Part shown: positions 5,865 through 32,544 of the stretch, piece by piece
Numbering within the stretch: the first letter of the stretch is position 1
Layout: each line of letters opens with the position of its first letter
NCBI GenBank assembly: GCA_008501765.1
Contig: QQUE01000012.1
Coordinates: forward strand, 434,001-498,000
Length of the DNA stretch: 64,000 nt
Source of the DNA: Calditrichota bacterium
Lineage (GTDB): Bacteria > Zhuqueibacterota > Zhuqueibacteria > Zhuqueibacterales > Geothermadaptataceae
Direction: 5' to 3'
Translations under genes and position numbers: made by a program
Notes under the pieces: generated by a model
Told to the model about the DNA's origin: nothing
Seen by the model: only the letters and a program-made list of their open reading frames with translations
Databases searched by the model: none

Positions 5865-6794
5865 GTGTTGAAAGCCAAACTATGTGCCCCAATAATCCCG
5901 CTACTGCTCATTTTGACCTTTGGATGTGAAAAGCCTCAAATGAACAAACTTCAGACCGCCAAATTAACCCAACAAATATCCGACCTGTCTGATGATTTAA
6001 ATGCACAAATCGGCGTTTATTTTTATGACCTTGGCACCGCGCAGGAATTTCAATTTAATGCCAAAACCATGATGCATGCGGCAAGCACGATGAAAGTTCC
6101 GGTGATGATCGAACTTTTTCGACAGGCGGAAGACAACAAGCTGAATTTGACCGACAAACTCCTTGTTGAAAATAAATTTTACAGTATCGTCGACAGCAGC
6201 GTTTTCACTCTCGAACTCAATCGCGACAGCGGCGAAGCGCTCTACGATTCGCTGGGCAAAGAAGTAACGATTCGCCGATTGATCACCGACATGATCACCC
6301 ACAGCAGCAATTTGGCGACAAATCTGCTCATCCAGTTGGTGGATGCAAAAAACGTCACCACCACGATGCGCAGCCTGGGTGCGGATACAATTCAGGTTTT
6401 GCGTGGCGTTGAGGATATAAAAGCATTCCGGAAAGGCTGGAGCAATTACACCAATGCCTACGATTTAGGCATGATTATGAAAGCCATTGCCACATCCACC
6501 GCTGCATCCGATACCAGTTGTATCGAAATGATTGACATATTATCGCAGCAGGCATTCCGGAAAAAAATACCGGCAGGCATTCCCGACAGTGTGAGAGTAG
6601 CCAATAAAACCGGCTCAATTACAGCGATAAATCATGATTGTGCCATCGTCTTTCCACCGGAGCGTAAACCGTATATCCTTGTTGTACTTACAAAAGGCAT
6701 TGCCGAACCCGAAAAAGCAGAGTCGGCGATTGCTGCAATTTCAAAATCCATCTTCGACGACTTGCACCGGCGCCCATCAGCGGGGAAATATTGA
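5865..6794 (+). CDS. Class A beta-lactamase-like serine hydrolase, probable lipoprotein
   Basis: Exported serine hydrolase of the beta-lactamase/PBP-like fold, 309 residues from a GTG at 5865 (TTG at 5868 is also possible) after an AGGA site. The hydrophobic leader IIPLLLILTFGC suggests a lipoprotein, although the lipobox is not canonical. Catalytic motifs are visible: STMK (SxxK, near residue 75), HSSN where class A enzymes have SDN, GVED in the omega-loop region, and NKTGSI (KTG). The Asp of SDN is replaced by Ser. It could be a true beta-lactamase or a peptidoglycan-related hydrolase; motif spacing fits class A. It is followed by another exported-protein gene on the same strand. Confidence 0.88.
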   Translation: MLKAKLCAPIIPLLLILTFGCEKPQMNKLQTAKLTQQISDLSDDLNAQIGVYFYDLGTAQEFQFNAKTMMHAASTMKVPVMIELFRQAEDNKLNLTDKLLVENKFYSIVDSSVFTLELNRDSGEALYDSLGKEVTIRRLITDMITHSSNLATNLLIQLVDAKNVTTTMRSLGADTIQVLRGVEDIKAFRKGWSNYTNAYDLGMIMKAIATSTAASDTSCIEMIDILSQQAFRKKIPAGIPDSVRVANKTGSITAINHDCAIVFPPERKPYILVVLTKGIAEPEKAESAIAAISKSIFDDLHRRPSAGKY

Positions 6795-16529: not shown

Positions 16530-17707
16530 AGAAGGAATGGCAAGTTGAAAGTTTTGGGAAATTATTTACAATTAGACCACAGAAGAAGGAAGCATATAAT
16601 AGTTTAAATAAAAATGATATTGTATCATTTGTTCCGATGTCCGATTTAAAGGAAAAAGCTAAGGGTTTATCTTTGACTCAAGCGAAAAAATTATCCGAAG
16701 TTTACTCTGGCTATACATATTTTGCAGATAATGATGTTCTTCTTGCTAAAATAACACCTTGCTTTGAAAATGGGAAATTAGGTATTGCACAGAATTTAGA
16801 AAATGGAATTGGTTTTGGTTCGAGTGAATTTATTGTATTTAGGGCAAATGGACGGGTGATTCCTGAATATCTGTTTTACTTTCTTTCAAATGAGAAATTT
16901 AGACAGGCAGGTAAAAAACAGATGACAGGCGCCGTTGGTCACAAAAGAGTTCCAAAAGATTTCATTGAAAATTATAAACTTCCTTTCCCAACTTCAATTG
17001 AAGAGCAAAAGCGCATTGTGGCCATTTTAGACAAAGCCTTTGCCGCCATTGACCAGGCCAGAGCCAATGCCCAAAAGAACCTGCAAAACAGCCGGGAATT
17101 GTTTGAGTCCTATTTAAACAAAGTCTTTGCCAATCCGGGGGAAGATTGGGAAGAGAAGAAGCTATCAGAAGTTTCACAATTTATTAATGGAAAAGCATAT
17201 AGTAAGAAAGAACTGTTAAATCGTGGTAAATATAGAGTTTTACGAGTTGGAAATTTTTTCACCAACAACAATTGGTATTATTCTGATTTAGAATTACCAC
17301 CTGATAAGTATTGTGAAAATGGCGATTTGCTTTATGCTTGGTCAGCGTCATTTGGCCCAAGGATTTGGACTGGTGAAAAGGTAATATATCATTATCATAT
17401 TTGGAAGGTTATACCGGACACAAGCTATATAACTAAAGAATTCCTTTACTTTCTATTAGAGTGGGATGTTGAAAAGATTAAATCAGAACAGGGTGCAGGA
17501 ACAACAATGATTCACGTGACAAAAGGTTCGATGGAAAACCGAAATGTCTTCATTCCACCTATAGGAATTCAAGAATCCATTGTTAGCAAAACAAAAATAA
17601 TGATAAAAGAAACTAATCGTCTAAAAGAAATATATCAGAAAAAAATCACTGATTTGGAAGAACTGAAAAAATCCATCCTGCACAAAGCCTTTGAGGGGGA
17701 ATTGTAA
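16526..17707 (+). CDS. hsdS: Type I restriction-modification system, specificity subunit
   Basis: DNA-recognition subunit, 393 residues. It has the usual two target-recognition domains, each followed by a conserved helical spacer. TRD1 runs about 1-150 (MKKEWQVESFGKLFTIRP, then PKDFIENYKLPFPTSIEEQK), followed by RIVAILDKAFAAIDQARANAQK. TRD2 runs about 205-360 (WEEKKLSEVSQFINGKAYSK, ending PPIGIQESIVSK), and the final helix is KKITDLEELKKSILHKAFEG. The TRDs are visibly AT-richer than the spacers, which is usual for shuffled specificity genes. The target sequence cannot be read. The stop shares its A with the ATG of the transposase gene (TAATG). Confidence 0.93.
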   Translation: MKKEWQVESFGKLFTIRPQKKEAYNSLNKNDIVSFVPMSDLKEKAKGLSLTQAKKLSEVYSGYTYFADNDVLLAKITPCFENGKLGIAQNLENGIGFGSSEFIVFRANGRVIPEYLFYFLSNEKFRQAGKKQMTGAVGHKRVPKDFIENYKLPFPTSIEEQKRIVAILDKAFAAIDQARANAQKNLQNSRELFESYLNKVFANPGEDWEEKKLSEVSQFINGKAYSKKELLNRGKYRVLRVGNFFTNNNWYYSDLELPPDKYCENGDLLYAWSASFGPRIWTGEKVIYHYHIWKVIPDTSYITKEFLYFLLEWDVEKIKSEQGAGTTMIHVTKGSMENRNVFIPPIGIQESIVSKTKIMIKETNRLKEIYQKKITDLEELKKSILHKAFEGEL

Positions 17708-18339
17708 TGACAGTGTATAAAACCAAATACCGCGTCGAATCCGCCCGACTGGAAAATTGGGATTACGCGTCGGATGGGCATTATTTCATTACCATCTGTA
17801 CGAAAAACCGCGCCTGCCTGTTTGGCGACGTCATCGATGGGCACGTACGATTGTCGGACGCGGGGAAAATTGTTTTGGCGGAATGGGAAAAATCATTTCA
17901 AATCCGTTCAGAATTATCGTGCGATTGTTTCATCATCATGCCCAATCATATTCACGCGGTTGTGATGATAAAAAATGATGATACCGGCGGCGGCGTAGAG
18001 ACGCACGGGGCGGATACGCGCGGGGTAGAGACGCACGGCCGTGCGTCTCTACAAAATAATGGCCGTGCGTCTCTACCGTCCCCAAAACCACAACCCACCA
18101 AATCCGTTGCCACACGCCGACCGAAATCCATTTCATCATTTGTTGCCGGATTCAAATCCGCCGCCACCAAACGAATCAATGAATACCGAAAAACACCCGC
18201 GAAACCGGTCTGGCAATCCCGTTTCCATGGTCATATTGTTCGTGACGAAAAATCCCTGATCAGAATCAGGCATTATATTATAAATAATCCCGGTAAATGG
18301 ACCGAAGATGATTTGTATTCAAAGGAAGCCAAATTATGA
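17707..18339 (+). CDS. REP-associated tyrosine transposase (RAYT, IS200-like Y1 fold)
   Basis: Single-stranded-DNA transposase of the Y1/HUH class that recognises REP palindromes. 210 residues: HYFITICTKNRACLFGDV near 27, the HUH metal motif MPNHIHAVV near 79, and IRHYIINNPGKW near 190 with the catalytic Tyr. Between them is a low-complexity insert (about 97-125) made by one full and two half copies of a palindrome read as VETHGRASL. That insert separates the HUH motif from the SISSFVAGFKSAATKRINEY helix. The gene shares one base with hsdS and four with hsdR (ATGA), so it is fully embedded in the operon. It may be active or domesticated; all recognisable catalytic residues are present. Confidence 0.9.
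   Translation: MTVYKTKYRVESARLENWDYASDGHYFITICTKNRACLFGDVIDGHVRLSDAGKIVLAEWEKSFQIRSELSCDCFIIMPNHIHAVVMIKNDDTGGGVETHGADTRGVETHGRASLQNNGRASLPSPKPQPTKSVATRRPKSISSFVAGFKSAATKRINEYRKTPAKPVWQSRFHGHIVRDEKSLIRIRHYIINNPGKWTEDDLYSKEAKL
17995..18076. repeat. Cluster of REP-type palindromes inside the RAYT gene
   Basis: A half copy (17995-18008), a perfect 28-bp palindrome (18025-18052; half-site GTAGAGACGCACGG) and another half copy (18061-18076). All lie in frame in the transposase gene. Confidence 0.93.
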
Positions 18340-20672
18340 ACGAAGCGGAAACCAGAGCGGAACTCATCGATCCCAAATTAAAGGCCAGCGGCTGGGGCGA
18401 AATCGAAGATACAAAAATTTTGCGTGAGTTTTACTTCACCATCGGTAAACTTCAAACCGGCGGCCAGCGCACCAAACCGTTGCAAGCCGATTATATTCTC
18501 ACATACAAAAATCAAAAGCTGGCGGTTGTGGAAGCAAAAAGCGCTGAACTGCCCATTGGCGAGGGTGTGGCCCAGGCTAAAAATTACGCCGATAAACTGC
18601 ATATCCCCTTTGCCTATTCCAGCAACGGCAACGAAATCTATGAAATCAATATGAGCACAGGTACAGAGAAAGATGTGGCCGGTTTCCCCACGCCCGCTGA
18701 ATTATGGCAGCGGGTTGTAAAGACACACGGCCGTGCGTCTCAACGGTGGCGTGATGCCTTTAATGACATCCCTTATGAAGATATCGGCGGCAGCAAACCG
18801 TTGCGCTTCTATCAGGAAATTGCCGTCAACAAAGCTTTGTGGGCAGTAGCCGAGGGCAAAGAACGCATTTTACTGACCCTGGCTACCGGCACCGGTAAAA
18901 CCTTTATCGCTTTTCAAATCGCCTGGAAATTATTCTATTCGCGCTGGAATTTGACTTCGACGAGCTCAGCCACCGAATATTTTGCAAGAAGGCCGCGTAT
19001 TCTGTTTCTGGCCGACCGCAATATATTAGCCAATCAGGCTTTTAATGCTTTTAACGCTTTCCCGGAAGATGCCCTGGTGCGCATCAATCCTGCTGAAATT
19101 CGTAACAATGGCCGGGTTCCCACCAACGGCAGCATCTTCTTTACCATCTTTCAAACCTTTATGAGCGGCCCGGACAATTCACCCTATTTTGGACAGTATC
19201 CCAAAGATTATTTCGATTTTATCATCATCGATGAGTGTCACCGCGGCGGCGCCAATGATGAAAGCAACTGGCGTGATATAATGGATTACTTTTCACCGGC
19301 TGTCCAGCTTGGTTTAACCGCCACACCCAAGCGCACGCACAACATCGATACCTATACTTATTTCGGCGACCCGGTTTATATCTATTCTTTAAAAGAAGGT
19401 ATCAATGATGGATTTCTAACGCCGTTCCGGGTGAAGCGTATTCAAACCACGATTGATGAATATGTTTACACGCCCGATGATACGGTGATTGAAGGTGAAG
19501 TGGAAGAAGGCAAAATTTATGTAGAAACGGAATTCAACCGCATCATCGAAATAAAAGCCCGTGAGAAAAAGCGCGTTCAGATTGTTTTGGATGAAATCAA
19601 CCAGAAACAGAAAACCATCATTTTTTGCGCGACGCAAGACCACGCTCTGGCTGTCCGGGATTTGGTGAATCAGAACAAAGAAAGTTCCGACCCCAGCTAT
19701 TGCCAGCGGGTAACCGCCAATGACGGTGCGCTCGGCGAACAGCATTTGCGCGAATTTCAGGATAATGAAAAAACCATTCCCACCGTTTTGACCACCTCGC
19801 AAAAGTTATCCACCGGGGTTGATGCCCGCAATATCCGCAATATTGTTTTGCTTCGCCCCATAAATACGATGATCGAATTTAAACAGATTGTGGGCCGTGG
19901 GACCCGTTTGTTTGAAGGTAAAGAGTATTTTACCATTTATGATTTTGTGGATGCCTACCACCATTTTTCCGATCCCGAATGGGATGGTGAACCGTTGGAG
20001 CCGGAAATTCCAGCCAGGACAGATCCACCGCCGGATAATCCTACCGGGCCTCCCGATTCCCCGCCACAGCCTCCAGTTTCAAGGACTCGACTCATTATAA
20101 AACTGAATGACGGCAAAGAACGCGAAATCCAGCATATGATTGCTACCTCTTTTTGGAATGCCGATGGCAGACCCATTTCAGCGGAAGAATTTCTGGAAAA
20201 TCTTTATGGTAAGCTACCTGAGTTTTTTAGCGATGAAGCTGAGCTTAGAAAAATCTGGTCTGTCCCGGCAACCCGCAAATCATTATTGCAACAATTGGAA
20301 GAAGCCGGTTTTGGAAAAGATGAATTGAGAAATTTACAACGATTAATTAATGCCGAAAAGAGTGATTTATTCGATGTGCTTGAATATGTGTCTTTTGCGG
20401 TAAAACCCATCACCCGTGAAGAACGGGTGGTTAATGCCAGCTCGCAAATCTTTGATGGTTTGGCTGACAAACAAAAAGATTTTTTATCTTTTGTTCTATC
20501 CAAGTACATTGAAACTGGCGTCAGTGAACTTGACCAGGAAAAATTACCGAACTTGCTGGAATTAAAATATCAATCCATTACAGATGCTGCAGTAGCTTTG
20601 GGCGGTGTGGATTCGATAAAAAATACTTTCATTGAATTTCAGAAATATTTGTATGACCAGAAGGCTGCATAA
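18336..20672 (+). CDS. hsdR: Type I restriction-modification system, endonuclease/translocase subunit
   Basis: 778-residue motor subunit that translocates and cuts unmethylated DNA. The N-terminal nuclease domain (about 1-120) shows LQADYILTYKNQKLAVVEAK, i.e. the D...ExK catalytic triad. Superfamily 2 helicase motifs follow: ATGTGKTFIAFQIAW (Walker A, near 186), DECHRGG (DEAH-like, near 305), LTATPKR, and the C-terminal motif QIVGRGTRL. The C-terminal domain (about 600-778) would contact HsdM. Two repeat insertions lie in frame: a REP-type palindrome at 18717-18744 (VVKTHGRASQ) just before the helicase core, and a TTCGAC-type repeat at 18954-18976 (TSTSSATEY). A proline-rich linker (PPPDNPTGPPDSPPQPP) is near 570. 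Confidence 0.95.
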   Translation: MNEAETRAELIDPKLKASGWGEIEDTKILREFYFTIGKLQTGGQRTKPLQADYILTYKNQKLAVVEAKSAELPIGEGVAQAKNYADKLHIPFAYSSNGNEIYEINMSTGTEKDVAGFPTPAELWQRVVKTHGRASQRWRDAFNDIPYEDIGGSKPLRFYQEIAVNKALWAVAEGKERILLTLATGTGKTFIAFQIAWKLFYSRWNLTSTSSATEYFARRPRILFLADRNILANQAFNAFNAFPEDALVRINPAEIRNNGRVPTNGSIFFTIFQTFMSGPDNSPYFGQYPKDYFDFIIIDECHRGGANDESNWRDIMDYFSPAVQLGLTATPKRTHNIDTYTYFGDPVYIYSLKEGINDGFLTPFRVKRIQTTIDEYVYTPDDTVIEGEVEEGKIYVETEFNRIIEIKAREKKRVQIVLDEINQKQKTIIFCATQDHALAVRDLVNQNKESSDPSYCQRVTANDGALGEQHLREFQDNEKTIPTVLTTSQKLSTGVDARNIRNIVLLRPINTMIEFKQIVGRGTRLFEGKEYFTIYDFVDAYHHFSDPEWDGEPLEPEIPARTDPPPDNPTGPPDSPPQPPVSRTRLIIKLNDGKEREIQHMIATSFWNADGRPISAEEFLENLYGKLPEFFSDEAELRKIWSVPATRKSLLQQLEEAGFGKDELRNLQRLINAEKSDLFDVLEYVSFAVKPITREERVVNASSQIFDGLADKQKDFLSFVLSKYIETGVSELDQEKLPNLLELKYQSITDAAVALGGVDSIKNTFIEFQKYLYDQKAA
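18717..18744. repeat. REP-type palindrome within hsdR
   Basis: Degenerate 28-bp copy of the palindrome in the RAYT gene (centre ACACGGCCGTGCGTCT), read in the same frame (VKTHGRASQ). Confidence 0.85.
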
Positions 20673-23041: not shown

Positions 23042-23074
23042 AATCCTGCCAGGATTTGGAATCCTGGCAGGATT
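23042..23074. repeat. 33-bp palindrome (intergenic copy)
   Basis: 15-base arms AATCCTGCCAGGATT / AATCCTGGCAGGATT around TGG. Same size and design as palindromes at 32512-32544, 26387-26419 and 25875-25907. It could also act as a transcript hairpin after the oxidoreductase gene; no T-run follows. Confidence 0.9.
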
Positions 23075-23650: not shown

Positions 23651-26600
23651 TCATTGTACCACCTGTCCTTTCAACCGTACTAACCGGGCTTTCGCATCTA
23701 TAAAATCCGGCAAATCCGGATCAGCATTTTTCCACAAGTCGAGAAATTTTTCGGTGTTTGCAATGGCCTGCTTTGTGTCGCCGTTCGCTTCGTAAATTTT
23801 GCCGAGGTAATACAATCCGAATGGATAAACGAACGGGCGAACGGTATTATAACTCTTTGACTTTTCAATTGCGACAATGGCTTTATCAAGCGCTCCCATT
23901 TCATAATAGGCTTTGATGAGCCCCAGGTTAAGCCAACTGATACTCCGCGTTGGATAAATCTTAATTAGCGATTCAAACTTTAGAGCCGCTTCCTGCCAAC
24001 GCCCCCTGGCAAGCTCCATTTCGGCGTCATTTCTCCTGCGCCAGAAAACGGGTTGCAACCGAGCATCTTTTAAAAGTGCACTTGCTTTATCAATTTTTCC
24101 GATTTGTAAATAACTATTTGCCAGCTTCACAATATGATTGCCATTCTCAGAATCGTAAAATAGCTCCATATTATTAATTTCCTTTTGCATTGCAAATGTA
24201 TCCCGGCGCATGCTAAAAAGTATATCGGCTTTATTTTGTATGCGATTGAAAATAGCGGTCGTGTCATTATCACTTTTGGAAAAGGCAATGCCTTGATCCA
24301 GCAACTTTTCCATTTCAGAATATTTGCCCAAATAGCCATAGAAAGAGGCTAATTGGAGAACACCAGATCGTCGCACAGATTCCGGTTGGTTCTCTCTTGT
24401 CATATCCTTAAAGTGCGCTTCAGCTTTGGCATATTCTTCCTGATAGCCATAACCTCTGCCAACCAGACTCAACATAAACGCATCTTGAGGAAAGAGTTGA
24501 AATCCGTGCTGAATGATCTCGAGGGCCTGGGGTAGGTCCCCGGTTGCCACATAAACAGAGGCTGCCTGGCGGAATGTGCCAGGACCGGCAGCTGTTTTTA
24601 GGAGCTTATCTACATAAATGCGCGCTTGTTCATTTTTTCTTGCATACACAAGGTTTAGGCTGGCATGAAATAAGGCGTTCTTGTCATCCGGGCTACTCGC
24701 CAAGATTTCCTCATAACTTGTCACTGCTTTATCGAACTCTCCCACCTGTGTGTAATACATTCCCCATAATATATTTACCCATCTTTGATTAATTTTCTCC
24801 AATCGTGCAAGCATGGACCGCATTTTGTCATATTGCTCCGTTGTCATGTAATGCCATGATAAATGGTGCAATGCATGAGCATGGGTTGGATCCAATGTGA
24901 GGGTCTTGATCAAATATTTCTCTGACTTTTCAAACTGAGCCGCATGCATATAAAAGTCGCCCAATAGGGCTATTACCGATTTATCATTCGGGAAAAATTG
25001 TTCCATATCCTTTAAAACGATTGCAGCGGCTGAATATCCTCTGTCGAAAGACGTTCTGTAGGCGCGAAGCAGTTTTTTTTCCTTTTCTGGAAGCCTGTCA
25101 CGCAAAGCCCATGCTTTGATTAGAGGATCTTTCGCCAACAATTCATTTGCTGACCAAGCAATGGAACGAGCTAAACCAAAATAGGCAAGGGCAAAACTCG
25201 AATCCAGCGCAATGGCGTTTCTGTATTCTCGCTCTGCTTCTTCATTCTTAAGTTCGCTCATAAATTGTTCCGCCAGAAAATAGTGATGATATGCTTTGAT
25301 GTTTGTGGTAGTTACCCTTGTAATTTCCCGCTGCGACATCCGAACGACTTTTTCTTCTTCACGCAAATCAATGCGTGTTTTCTCGGAAAGCTTGTCGAGC
25401 AATCCCGGAATACTCTTTTTGCCCTCAGCCTCAACTTTTGTCGAAAAAAGGCGATCCCCGGTTTTCGAGTCAATGACTTTAAAATCAATACTATAGAGTT
25501 GATCAAAGTTGCGGATAGTGGCCACTGCCAAAGCGCTGATATTGGCGCGTTTTGCAATCTCCCGTCCAGCGGCTTCATCGACAAACGTCAGGTCAGATCT
25601 GCTCATTTGTTTGAACTCGTCATACATGCGTGTCCGGGAAAAAACATCCAATCGTCGCGACTGCTCCAGCGAGGTAATCAACATGCCTGAAAGCCCGTCC
25701 AGCTCCGGTTCGTTGGTCTGATTGACAAAATCGACCACGGCAATAGGGATGCGCTCCTTCGGTGTTGCATCCTCACGAACCAATAAAAAATAGCCGCTAA
25801 TGAGTAGCAGAACAGCGGCTAAAGCTGTGAATAAAACTTTTCGCCTGCGTTGCTGATGCGGGTGGGCAGTTTCTGATCCTGACGGGATTTGAAATCCTGC
25901 AGGCGTAGTTTCTGATTTTAAATCATCGAGCAATTCATCAGTATTTTGATAGCGGTCTTCGGCATCTTTCGCCAGCGATTTTGTGACGATCAATTGCAAA
26001 TTTTCCGGCACATCGTCTCGCAATTCAGAAATGGGCTGAGCTTCCTCGTTCAAAATAGAATAGATAACCGCCTGCTCGTAATCGCCGCGAAATGGCAACT
26101 GACCGGTGAGTATTTCATACAGCACCACACCAAACGCCCAGATATCCGCTCGTTGATCCACCGGTTCACCCTGTGCCTGCTCCGGCGACATGTACGCTGC
26201 TGTCCCAAGCGTTGATTGGTCTTTTGTTAATTGTGCACCACCACCAATTTTTGCCAACCCGAAATCTAGAATTTTAATCTGCCCGGCTTCTGTCAACATA
26301 ATATTGGATGATTTGATATCGCGGTGTGTGATGCCGTTTGCATGCGCCGCTTTCAGTCCCTCCGCGATTTGGGTGGCGTAATCCACAACCTTGCAAAGGT
26401 TTGCAACCTTCGCAAGGTTTTTCAGCTCCTGCCCATCGATGTATTCCATCACGATAAAAATCTCGTCATCAACTTCTTCGATTGCATAAATTGTCGCGAT
26501 ATTGGGATGATTTAGCGCAGCAGCAGCTTTGGCTTCGATTTTAAAGCGCTTGCGCTCATCGGAATTGGCAGCAATATGCTTTGGCAGGAACTTGATTGCA

Positions 26601-26707
26601 ACATCGCGGTCGAGTTTGGTATCGTATGCTTTATAGACTACACCCATACCGCCACGGCCAAGTTCTTCGAGGATTTTGTAGTGGAGAATTGTTTTGCTGT
26701 AGTTCAA
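23651..26707 (-). CDS. Membrane Ser/Thr protein kinase with TolB-like and TPR domains
   Basis: 1018 residues. The kinase domain (about 10-265) has the glycine loop LGRGGMGVVYKA, catalytic Lys39 (VAIKF), THRDIKSSN (Asp130), DFG (148-150) and SPEQAQG. A transmembrane helix follows (about 290-310). Outside is a TolB/FlgO-like domain (IPIAVVDFVNQTNEPELDGL), then about ten TPR-like repeats, as in eukaryote-type kinases of FCB and Acidobacteria-like phyla. Exactly 11 codons (residues 97-107, NLAKVANLCKV) are a 33-bp palindrome placed between the hinge (MEYIDGQELK) and the next helix. A second, degenerate palindrome encodes residues 268-278 before the membrane helix. The kinase probably senses an envelope signal; its target is unknown. 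Confidence 0.93.
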   Translation of the reverse strand: MNYSKTILHYKILEELGRGGMGVVYKAYDTKLDRDVAIKFLPKHIAANSDERKRFKIEAKAAAALNHPNIATIYAIEEVDDEIFIVMEYIDGQELKNLAKVANLCKVVDYATQIAEGLKAAHANGITHRDIKSSNIMLTEAGQIKILDFGLAKIGGGAQLTKDQSTLGTAAYMSPEQAQGEPVDQRADIWAFGVVLYEILTGQLPFRGDYEQAVIYSILNEEAQPISELRDDVPENLQLIVTKSLAKDAEDRYQNTDELLDDLKSETTPAGFQIPSGSETAHPHQQRRRKVLFTALAAVLLLISGYFLLVREDATPKERIPIAVVDFVNQTNEPELDGLSGMLITSLEQSRRLDVFSRTRMYDEFKQMSRSDLTFVDEAAGREIAKRANISALAVATIRNFDQLYSIDFKVIDSKTGDRLFSTKVEAEGKKSIPGLLDKLSEKTRIDLREEEKVVRMSQREITRVTTTNIKAYHHYFLAEQFMSELKNEEAEREYRNAIALDSSFALAYFGLARSIAWSANELLAKDPLIKAWALRDRLPEKEKKLLRAYRTSFDRGYSAAAIVLKDMEQFFPNDKSVIALLGDFYMHAAQFEKSEKYLIKTLTLDPTHAHALHHLSWHYMTTEQYDKMRSMLARLEKINQRWVNILWGMYYTQVGEFDKAVTSYEEILASSPDDKNALFHASLNLVYARKNEQARIYVDKLLKTAAGPGTFRQAASVYVATGDLPQALEIIQHGFQLFPQDAFMLSLVGRGYGYQEEYAKAEAHFKDMTRENQPESVRRSGVLQLASFYGYLGKYSEMEKLLDQGIAFSKSDNDTTAIFNRIQNKADILFSMRRDTFAMQKEINNMELFYDSENGNHIVKLANSYLQIGKIDKASALLKDARLQPVFWRRRNDAEMELARGRWQEAALKFESLIKIYPTRSISWLNLGLIKAYYEMGALDKAIVAIEKSKSYNTVRPFVYPFGLYYLGKIYEANGDTKQAIANTEKFLDLWKNADPDLPDFIDAKARLVRLKGQVVQ
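25875..25907. repeat. Degenerate 33-bp palindrome within the kinase gene
   Basis: GATCCTGACGGGATTTGAAA followed by TCCTGCAGGCGTA. It encodes residues about 268-278 of the kinase on the minus strand (TPAGFQIPSGS) and resembles the intergenic copies at 23042 and 32512. Confidence 0.65.
26387..26419. repeat. 33-bp palindrome within the kinase domain
   Basis: Arms AACCTTGCAAAGG / CCTTCGCAAGGTT around a short centre. It is exactly 11 codons in frame with the kinase. Confidence 0.88.
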
Positions 26708-32511: not shown

Positions 32512-32544
32512 AACTCTGACCGGATTTAAAATCCTGTCAGAGTT
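32512..32544. repeat. 33-bp palindrome between the two sialidase-like genes
   Basis: AACTCTGACCGGATT pairs with AATCCTGTCAGAGTT with one mismatch. Same size as the palindrome at 23042. Confidence 0.9.

Follow-up and report, generated by a model that had tools for sequence, protein, structure and literature searches.

How does a nearly perfect palindrome come to be read as part of the catalytic domain of a protein kinase, and does it lengthen the protein? In the window, i.e. the whole 64,000-nucleotide stretch of Calditrichota bacterium DNA that was analysed, positions 26387–26419 read AACCTTGCAAAGGTTTGCAACCTTCGCAAGGTT; on the coding (−) strand, the codons AAC CTT GCG AAG GTT GCA AAC CTT TGC AAG GTT encode NLAKVANLCKV, residues 97–107 of the 1018-residue product of the open reading frame 23651–26707 (−). 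The original prediction of a near-perfect palindromic repeat read in frame is borne out: 28 of the 33 letters equal those of the reverse complement, 14 of the 16 outer pairs are matched, and both 15-bp halves are individually hairpins (AACCTT-NNN-AAGGTT). Equally palindromic 33-mers with both half-hairpins occur twice in the window and not once in 200 dinucleotide-preserving shuffles of it, so that sequence, shuffle test and family members all mark the element as a 33-bp double-hairpin palindrome. The second such 33-mer, at 23042–23074, is a different, intergenic repeat of identical architecture (AATCCTGCCAGGATTTGGAATCCTGGCAGGATT), belonging to an AAYCCTG-type family that is commoner in this genome; a weaker, partly decayed intergenic 33-bp member of the same family lies at 32512–32544.

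The host gene, as judged from its open reading frame and Pfam matches, starts with TTG and encodes a Hanks-type Ser/Thr kinase with C-terminal TPR repeats. The kinase domain (residues 10–254; 25946–26680, − strand) is intact (PF00069, E = 5.9 × 10−56) and carries the VAIK, HRD and DFG motifs; PknB of M. tuberculosis is the nearest solved kinase (E = 2 × 10−55), and across an alignment of 50 sequences, K39, H128-R129-D130 and D148-F149-G150 hardly vary or do not vary at all, whereby the profile match is accompanied by the catalytic Lys, HRD and DFG expected of this kinase type. In an AlphaFold2 model (mean pLDDT 85.9; about 90 over residues 91–110), a short helix αD spans residues 95–98 and αE starts at 104; as modelled, the element encodes the end of αD, the αD–αE loop and the first turn of αE. 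This agrees with the proposed location directly past the kinase hinge, in a loop whose length varies: the segment from GxEL to (V/I)DYA ranges from 11 to 42 residues across kinases. The idea that the element had simply added 11 codons is, by contrast, not supported by these lengths, given that 155 of 222 kinases have the modal 14 residues here and the query kinase has 12. Relative to that norm, the protein is not lengthened, and the element thus takes up the segment or substitutes for it.

The suggested search for the palindrome elsewhere in the genome succeeded for the element family and failed for the exact sequence: AACCTTGCAAAGG was found only once in the 5.9-Mb genome (G000). Pattern searches of this genome located a degenerate AAYCYTG... 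pattern, representing the second family, in 33 places (control, zero), among them the kinase copy at 2 mismatches and the intergenic repeats at 23042–23074 and 32512–32544. The pattern AACCTN5AGGTTN3AACCTN5AGGTT has matches in 32 of the 63 genomes of the class, with at most 32 copies each (control, 0); there are 4 such places in G000, 9 in G002, 26 in G006 and 32 in G030. From its commonest form, AACCTTGCGAAGGTT-NNN-AACCTTCGCAAGGTT, the kinase copy (coding strand) differs at one position outside the variable spacer. The window element lacks the GTAG tag, starting with AACC and ending with GGTT, and accordingly falls outside the GTAG REP superfamily. As a separate observation, a tandem array of seven alternating 33-bp AAYCCTG-type elements with a period of about 390 bp is present at L194:7959-9166 (G000:C4:43958-45165).

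Four Y1_Tnp (IS200-like) genes of this genome passed the search threshold. One of them, on G000:C4 (L198; 186 residues; PF01797 at 32.7 bits, cut-off 23), lies at 6022–6582 between two palindromic repeats, CCCCTTGCGAAGGTTTAAAACCTTCGCAAGGGT at 5967–5999 (22 bp before the gene) and ACCCTTGCGAAGGTTTCAAACCTTCGCAAGGGT at 6592–6624 (9 bp after it), and ACCCTTGCGAAGGTTTCAAACCTTCGCAAGGGT is identical to the kinase element at 29 of 33 positions. The same layout is found in G024:C123 and G034:C67, where the transposase gene sits between AACCTTGCGAAGGTT...AACCTTCGCAAGGTT-type 33-mers about 625–630 bp apart; another Y1 gene of the query genome is flanked by different 33-mers, ACGTGCCAGGCACTTTGGAAATGCCTGGCACGT and ATGTGCCAGGCACTTTGGAAGTGCCTGGCACAT. 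In addition, non-autonomous copies are dispersed in the genome. Because the kinase element matches the transposon ends, a Y1 transposase appears to have moved the kinase copy, although the transposon ends in G000 differ from that copy at 4 or more positions. We know of no transposition assay for these transposases. Flanking 33-bp palindromes were absent at the highest-scoring Y1_Tnp genes (most of L291–L319) and present only at certain lower-scoring ones.

The window itself contains a Y1_Tnp gene (17707–18339), which overlaps with the beginning of a gene for a type I restriction R subunit. In its own frame, just past the HUH-like motif MPNHIH, the Y1_Tnp gene carries GTAG-type repeats (GTAGAGACGCACGG...CCGTGCGTCTCTAC; 17995–18077); an in-frame REP past such a motif is also present in L331, L335 and L341. 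Within the R-subunit open reading frame (18336–20672), positions 18721–18740 form a hairpin, AGACACACGGCCGTGCGTCT, that is related to the GTAG-type repeat.

Many paralogous kinases are present in these genomes, and the element recurs among them at the same place. In G002, a genome of the same genus, a different kinase on a distant branch has NLAKVENLRKV encoded by a perfect 33-mer at the same codon. The DNA of the two kinases is 93% identical in the loop and 66% identical in the rest of the domain, the largest loop-over-domain excess among 24,278 kinase pairs. The original prediction would have failed had homologues shown the same residues encoded by non-palindromic DNA; there were none among the homologues examined, and the G002 kinase, the sole other one with nearly the same residues, likewise has the palindrome. 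AACCT 33-mers also lie in this segment of G061 and G042 kinases, and nearly every kinase of the query's own clade has a different repeat type there. No close strain with an empty site was found; the nearest homologues are 71–80% identical and carry other repeats in the segment. Weak or decayed palindromes occupy the same place in L098, L075, L063 and L064, and such apparent decay in relatives argues against the hairpin being kept for a conserved RNA or DNA role.

To quantify the recurrence, we used 228 aligned kinase domains, 138 from genomes of the class and 90 others, mostly from a GTDB species scan for titles naming Calditrichota, KSB1, Aminicenantes, Ignavibacteria, Acidobacteria and others. 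Among the hairpins scoring 11 or more, 16 fall in residues 96–109 and 3 in the remaining domain, compared to 0.67 in total in codon-shuffled kinase genes. The 16 comprise AACCT 33-mers (query, L184 and L059; that of L058 reaches a score of 10), a 33-bp palindrome related to these (L052), GTAGGGGC...GCCCCTAC REPs and close variants (L028, L057, L080, L226, L070, L122, L223, L244 and L255), AATTG-type inverted repeats (L054 and L056) and one hairpin outside these named types (L071). GTAG elements occupy the same site in other kinases. Furthermore, 7-nt periodic repeats were found in 23 of 222 loops compared to 15 of 5,123 background windows; in the f2 genomes, such repeats (CAGTNNN, AAGTTGC, AATCCGA) encode many of the kinase loops, at the usual length of 14 residues (L087, L088, L099, L101, L105, L156 and others). 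A single ancestral insertion for all element-bearing kinases is rejected, since a FastTree tree from which the loop was left out requires, by parsimony, a minimum of 4 changes to explain the AACCT elements and 9 to explain the GTAG elements, counts that are approximate because the tree has no bootstrap; it is also contradicted by two GTAG variants of G031 kinases that occur elsewhere in G031. The αD–αE segment is, therefore, a genuine hotspot of capture in which several unrelated kinds of repeats are involved.

In-frame elements were seen in other proteins as well. Two hybrid histidine kinases, L199 (G019:C38) and L200 (G037:C133), have 33-bp elements (QPCEGSEPSQGL, QPSEGSEPSEGL) at the same place just before DRDK(I/L)EKI of the ATPase domain, possibly a second protein hotspot, and L200 has another element in the linker that precedes its receiver domain. 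In L338 (G037:C163), an in-frame GTAG REP at position 1341 encodes VGATGRSPLL after KPIAVLKG within an 810-residue open frame resembling an ABC-transporter permease.

We consider it likely (probability of about 0.75) that the kinase palindrome is a 33-bp mobile repeat, the end of a small Y1 transposon, captured in frame in the αD–αE segment. Two head-to-head 15-bp hairpins would make up the terminal repeat of this transposon, whose Y1 transposase (IS200-like, RAYT/TIRYT-type), encoded in the same genome, would have supplied the kinase copy. Once captured in frame, the copy would provide the end of αD, the loop and the first turn of αE, and its product, N-L-x-K-V-x-N-L-x-K-V, would resemble the usual L-x-[LIV]-x-x-[VAI] of the segment; native codons may have been replaced at insertion or deleted later, and selection would keep those frames that preserve the hydrophobic L-x-[LIV]-x-x-[VAI] or PLP pattern. 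For the GTAG copies found here, the frame in use is the one that yields VGA...PLP-like products. It is established that the element matches transposon ends, is widespread, lies in frame and brings no net gain in length, and that elements recur at this site in related kinases. Counting against this reading, plain insertion into a 14-residue loop should give about 25 residues and 12 are observed, and copies of the AACCT pattern in G000 are few. Mere insertion of a 28-bp GTAG element would put the gene out of frame, and yet the loops with such elements have 15–20 residues, suggestive of replacement between short matches.

The preference for this one segment may come from transposase targeting, from selection or from exchange of loops between kinases. 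Neutral tolerance alone, whereby insertion is random, copies within genes are mostly purged and the loop is among the few harmless places, is a possible explanation that we doubt: the highly variable length of the loop is in line with it, the decayed palindromes suggest harmless erosion of hairpins, and copies elsewhere look mostly intergenic. However, of the GTAG REP places in G031 (11) and G037 (15), 3 in each genome, i.e. 6 of 26, are at the kinase site, whereas about 0.5% would be expected if the site were merely as neutral as intergenic DNA (p of approximately 3 × 10−10). The resulting enrichment, some 50- to 100-fold over the neutral-intergenic expectation, is only an estimate because the number of kinases (about 97, with about 5 kb of segments) is a count of first-look candidates and the intergenic share (12% of the genome) was assumed. 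This test does not depend on kinase sampling and thus gives independent support for the hotspot; three of the six genes are kinases new to the sample, confirmed by BLASTP. The remaining surface loops of the kinase domain, moreover, had no hits.

Alternatively, the Y1 transposases, or template switching at the locus, might favour the site itself, e.g. through short matches of the element ends to native codons such as ATH-GTN and GG-CCN-CTN-CC. The codon at which GTAG starts is identical in nearly all kinases with GTAG elements, and the near-normal loops formed by 28-bp elements point the same way; against this, the flanks of 29 GTAG copies revealed a weak composition bias and no common target word, and unrelated repeats (AACCT 33-mers, heptamers) are found in the same segment. 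Such a preference is, accordingly, a tentative explanation.

It seems rather unlikely that the repeats serve as raw material kept by selection, with replacement of the αD–αE segment altering kinase specificity or partner binding, although the variety of repeat types in the query clade would fit such diversification. So would the kinases L055 and L216 from different genomes, which have in common a 42-nt heptamer-type loop; its DNA is 98% identical in the two, compared to 73% for the remaining domain, and this suggests that the loop was exchanged between them. Conversely, palindromes decay in several lineages, and the kinase family may be no more than an expanded and relaxed one. The broader proposal that the segment is an interchangeable cassette, repeatedly written over by repeats and exchanged between kinases as a source of diversity in specificity, is speculative and, in our estimation, improbable. 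Finally, a palindrome arising by chance or driven by codons, with no mobile element involved, is effectively ruled out, the single occurrence of the exact 33-mer in its genome notwithstanding, by the shuffles (0 of 200), by a multi-genome repeat family with zero control matches, by the matching transposon ends and by the copy at the same site in the G002 kinase.

These observations bear on how insertions of this kind are understood. Repeats inserted in frame in genes are usually viewed as accidents, scattered and tolerated. In these kinases, a single segment of an enzyme fold that is well understood has several repeat families, unrelated to one another, across many paralogues; neutral tolerance does not obviously account for their rate, and the protein is often little lengthened. 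How mobile repeats turn into protein sequence becomes testable in one place, with a candidate transposase identified.

Known systems share several of these features. As described in the portion of Di Nocera et al. (2013; PMC3733652) covered here, the REP/RAYT and TIR/TIRYT systems consist of palindromes of 20–40 bp, often paired, that flank Y1 tyrosine transposase genes, and the flanked Y1 genes of the present genomes have the REPtron/TIRtron layout; REPs of that system carry a GTAG/CGTC tag that the AACCT 33-mer lacks. The same portion records REP copies within open reading frames, notes that the recB genes of X. campestris and X. oryzae carry distinct REPs at roughly the same position, and contains no multi-paralogue kinase-loop hotspot with several repeat types. 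In mitochondrial genes of Nematomorpha, inverted repeats coexist with functional coding sequence (PMC6649704); these are up to 284 bp long, their arms encode conserved residues, and the part of that paper considered gives no link to a transposon. REPs within genes and Rickettsia palindromic elements (RPEs) are thus already known (PMC3733652, PMC10969869), whereas no description of the kinase-loop hotspot was found in the open-licence literature searched. The RPEs resemble the present element in being palindromic repeats in frame in protein-coding genes (PMC10969869). They are, however, about 150 bp long, encode a conserved peptide and are found in unrelated genes, whereas the kinase element is 33 bp long, its peptides vary with subfamily and frame, and it brings no net gain of codons at one site of one protein family.
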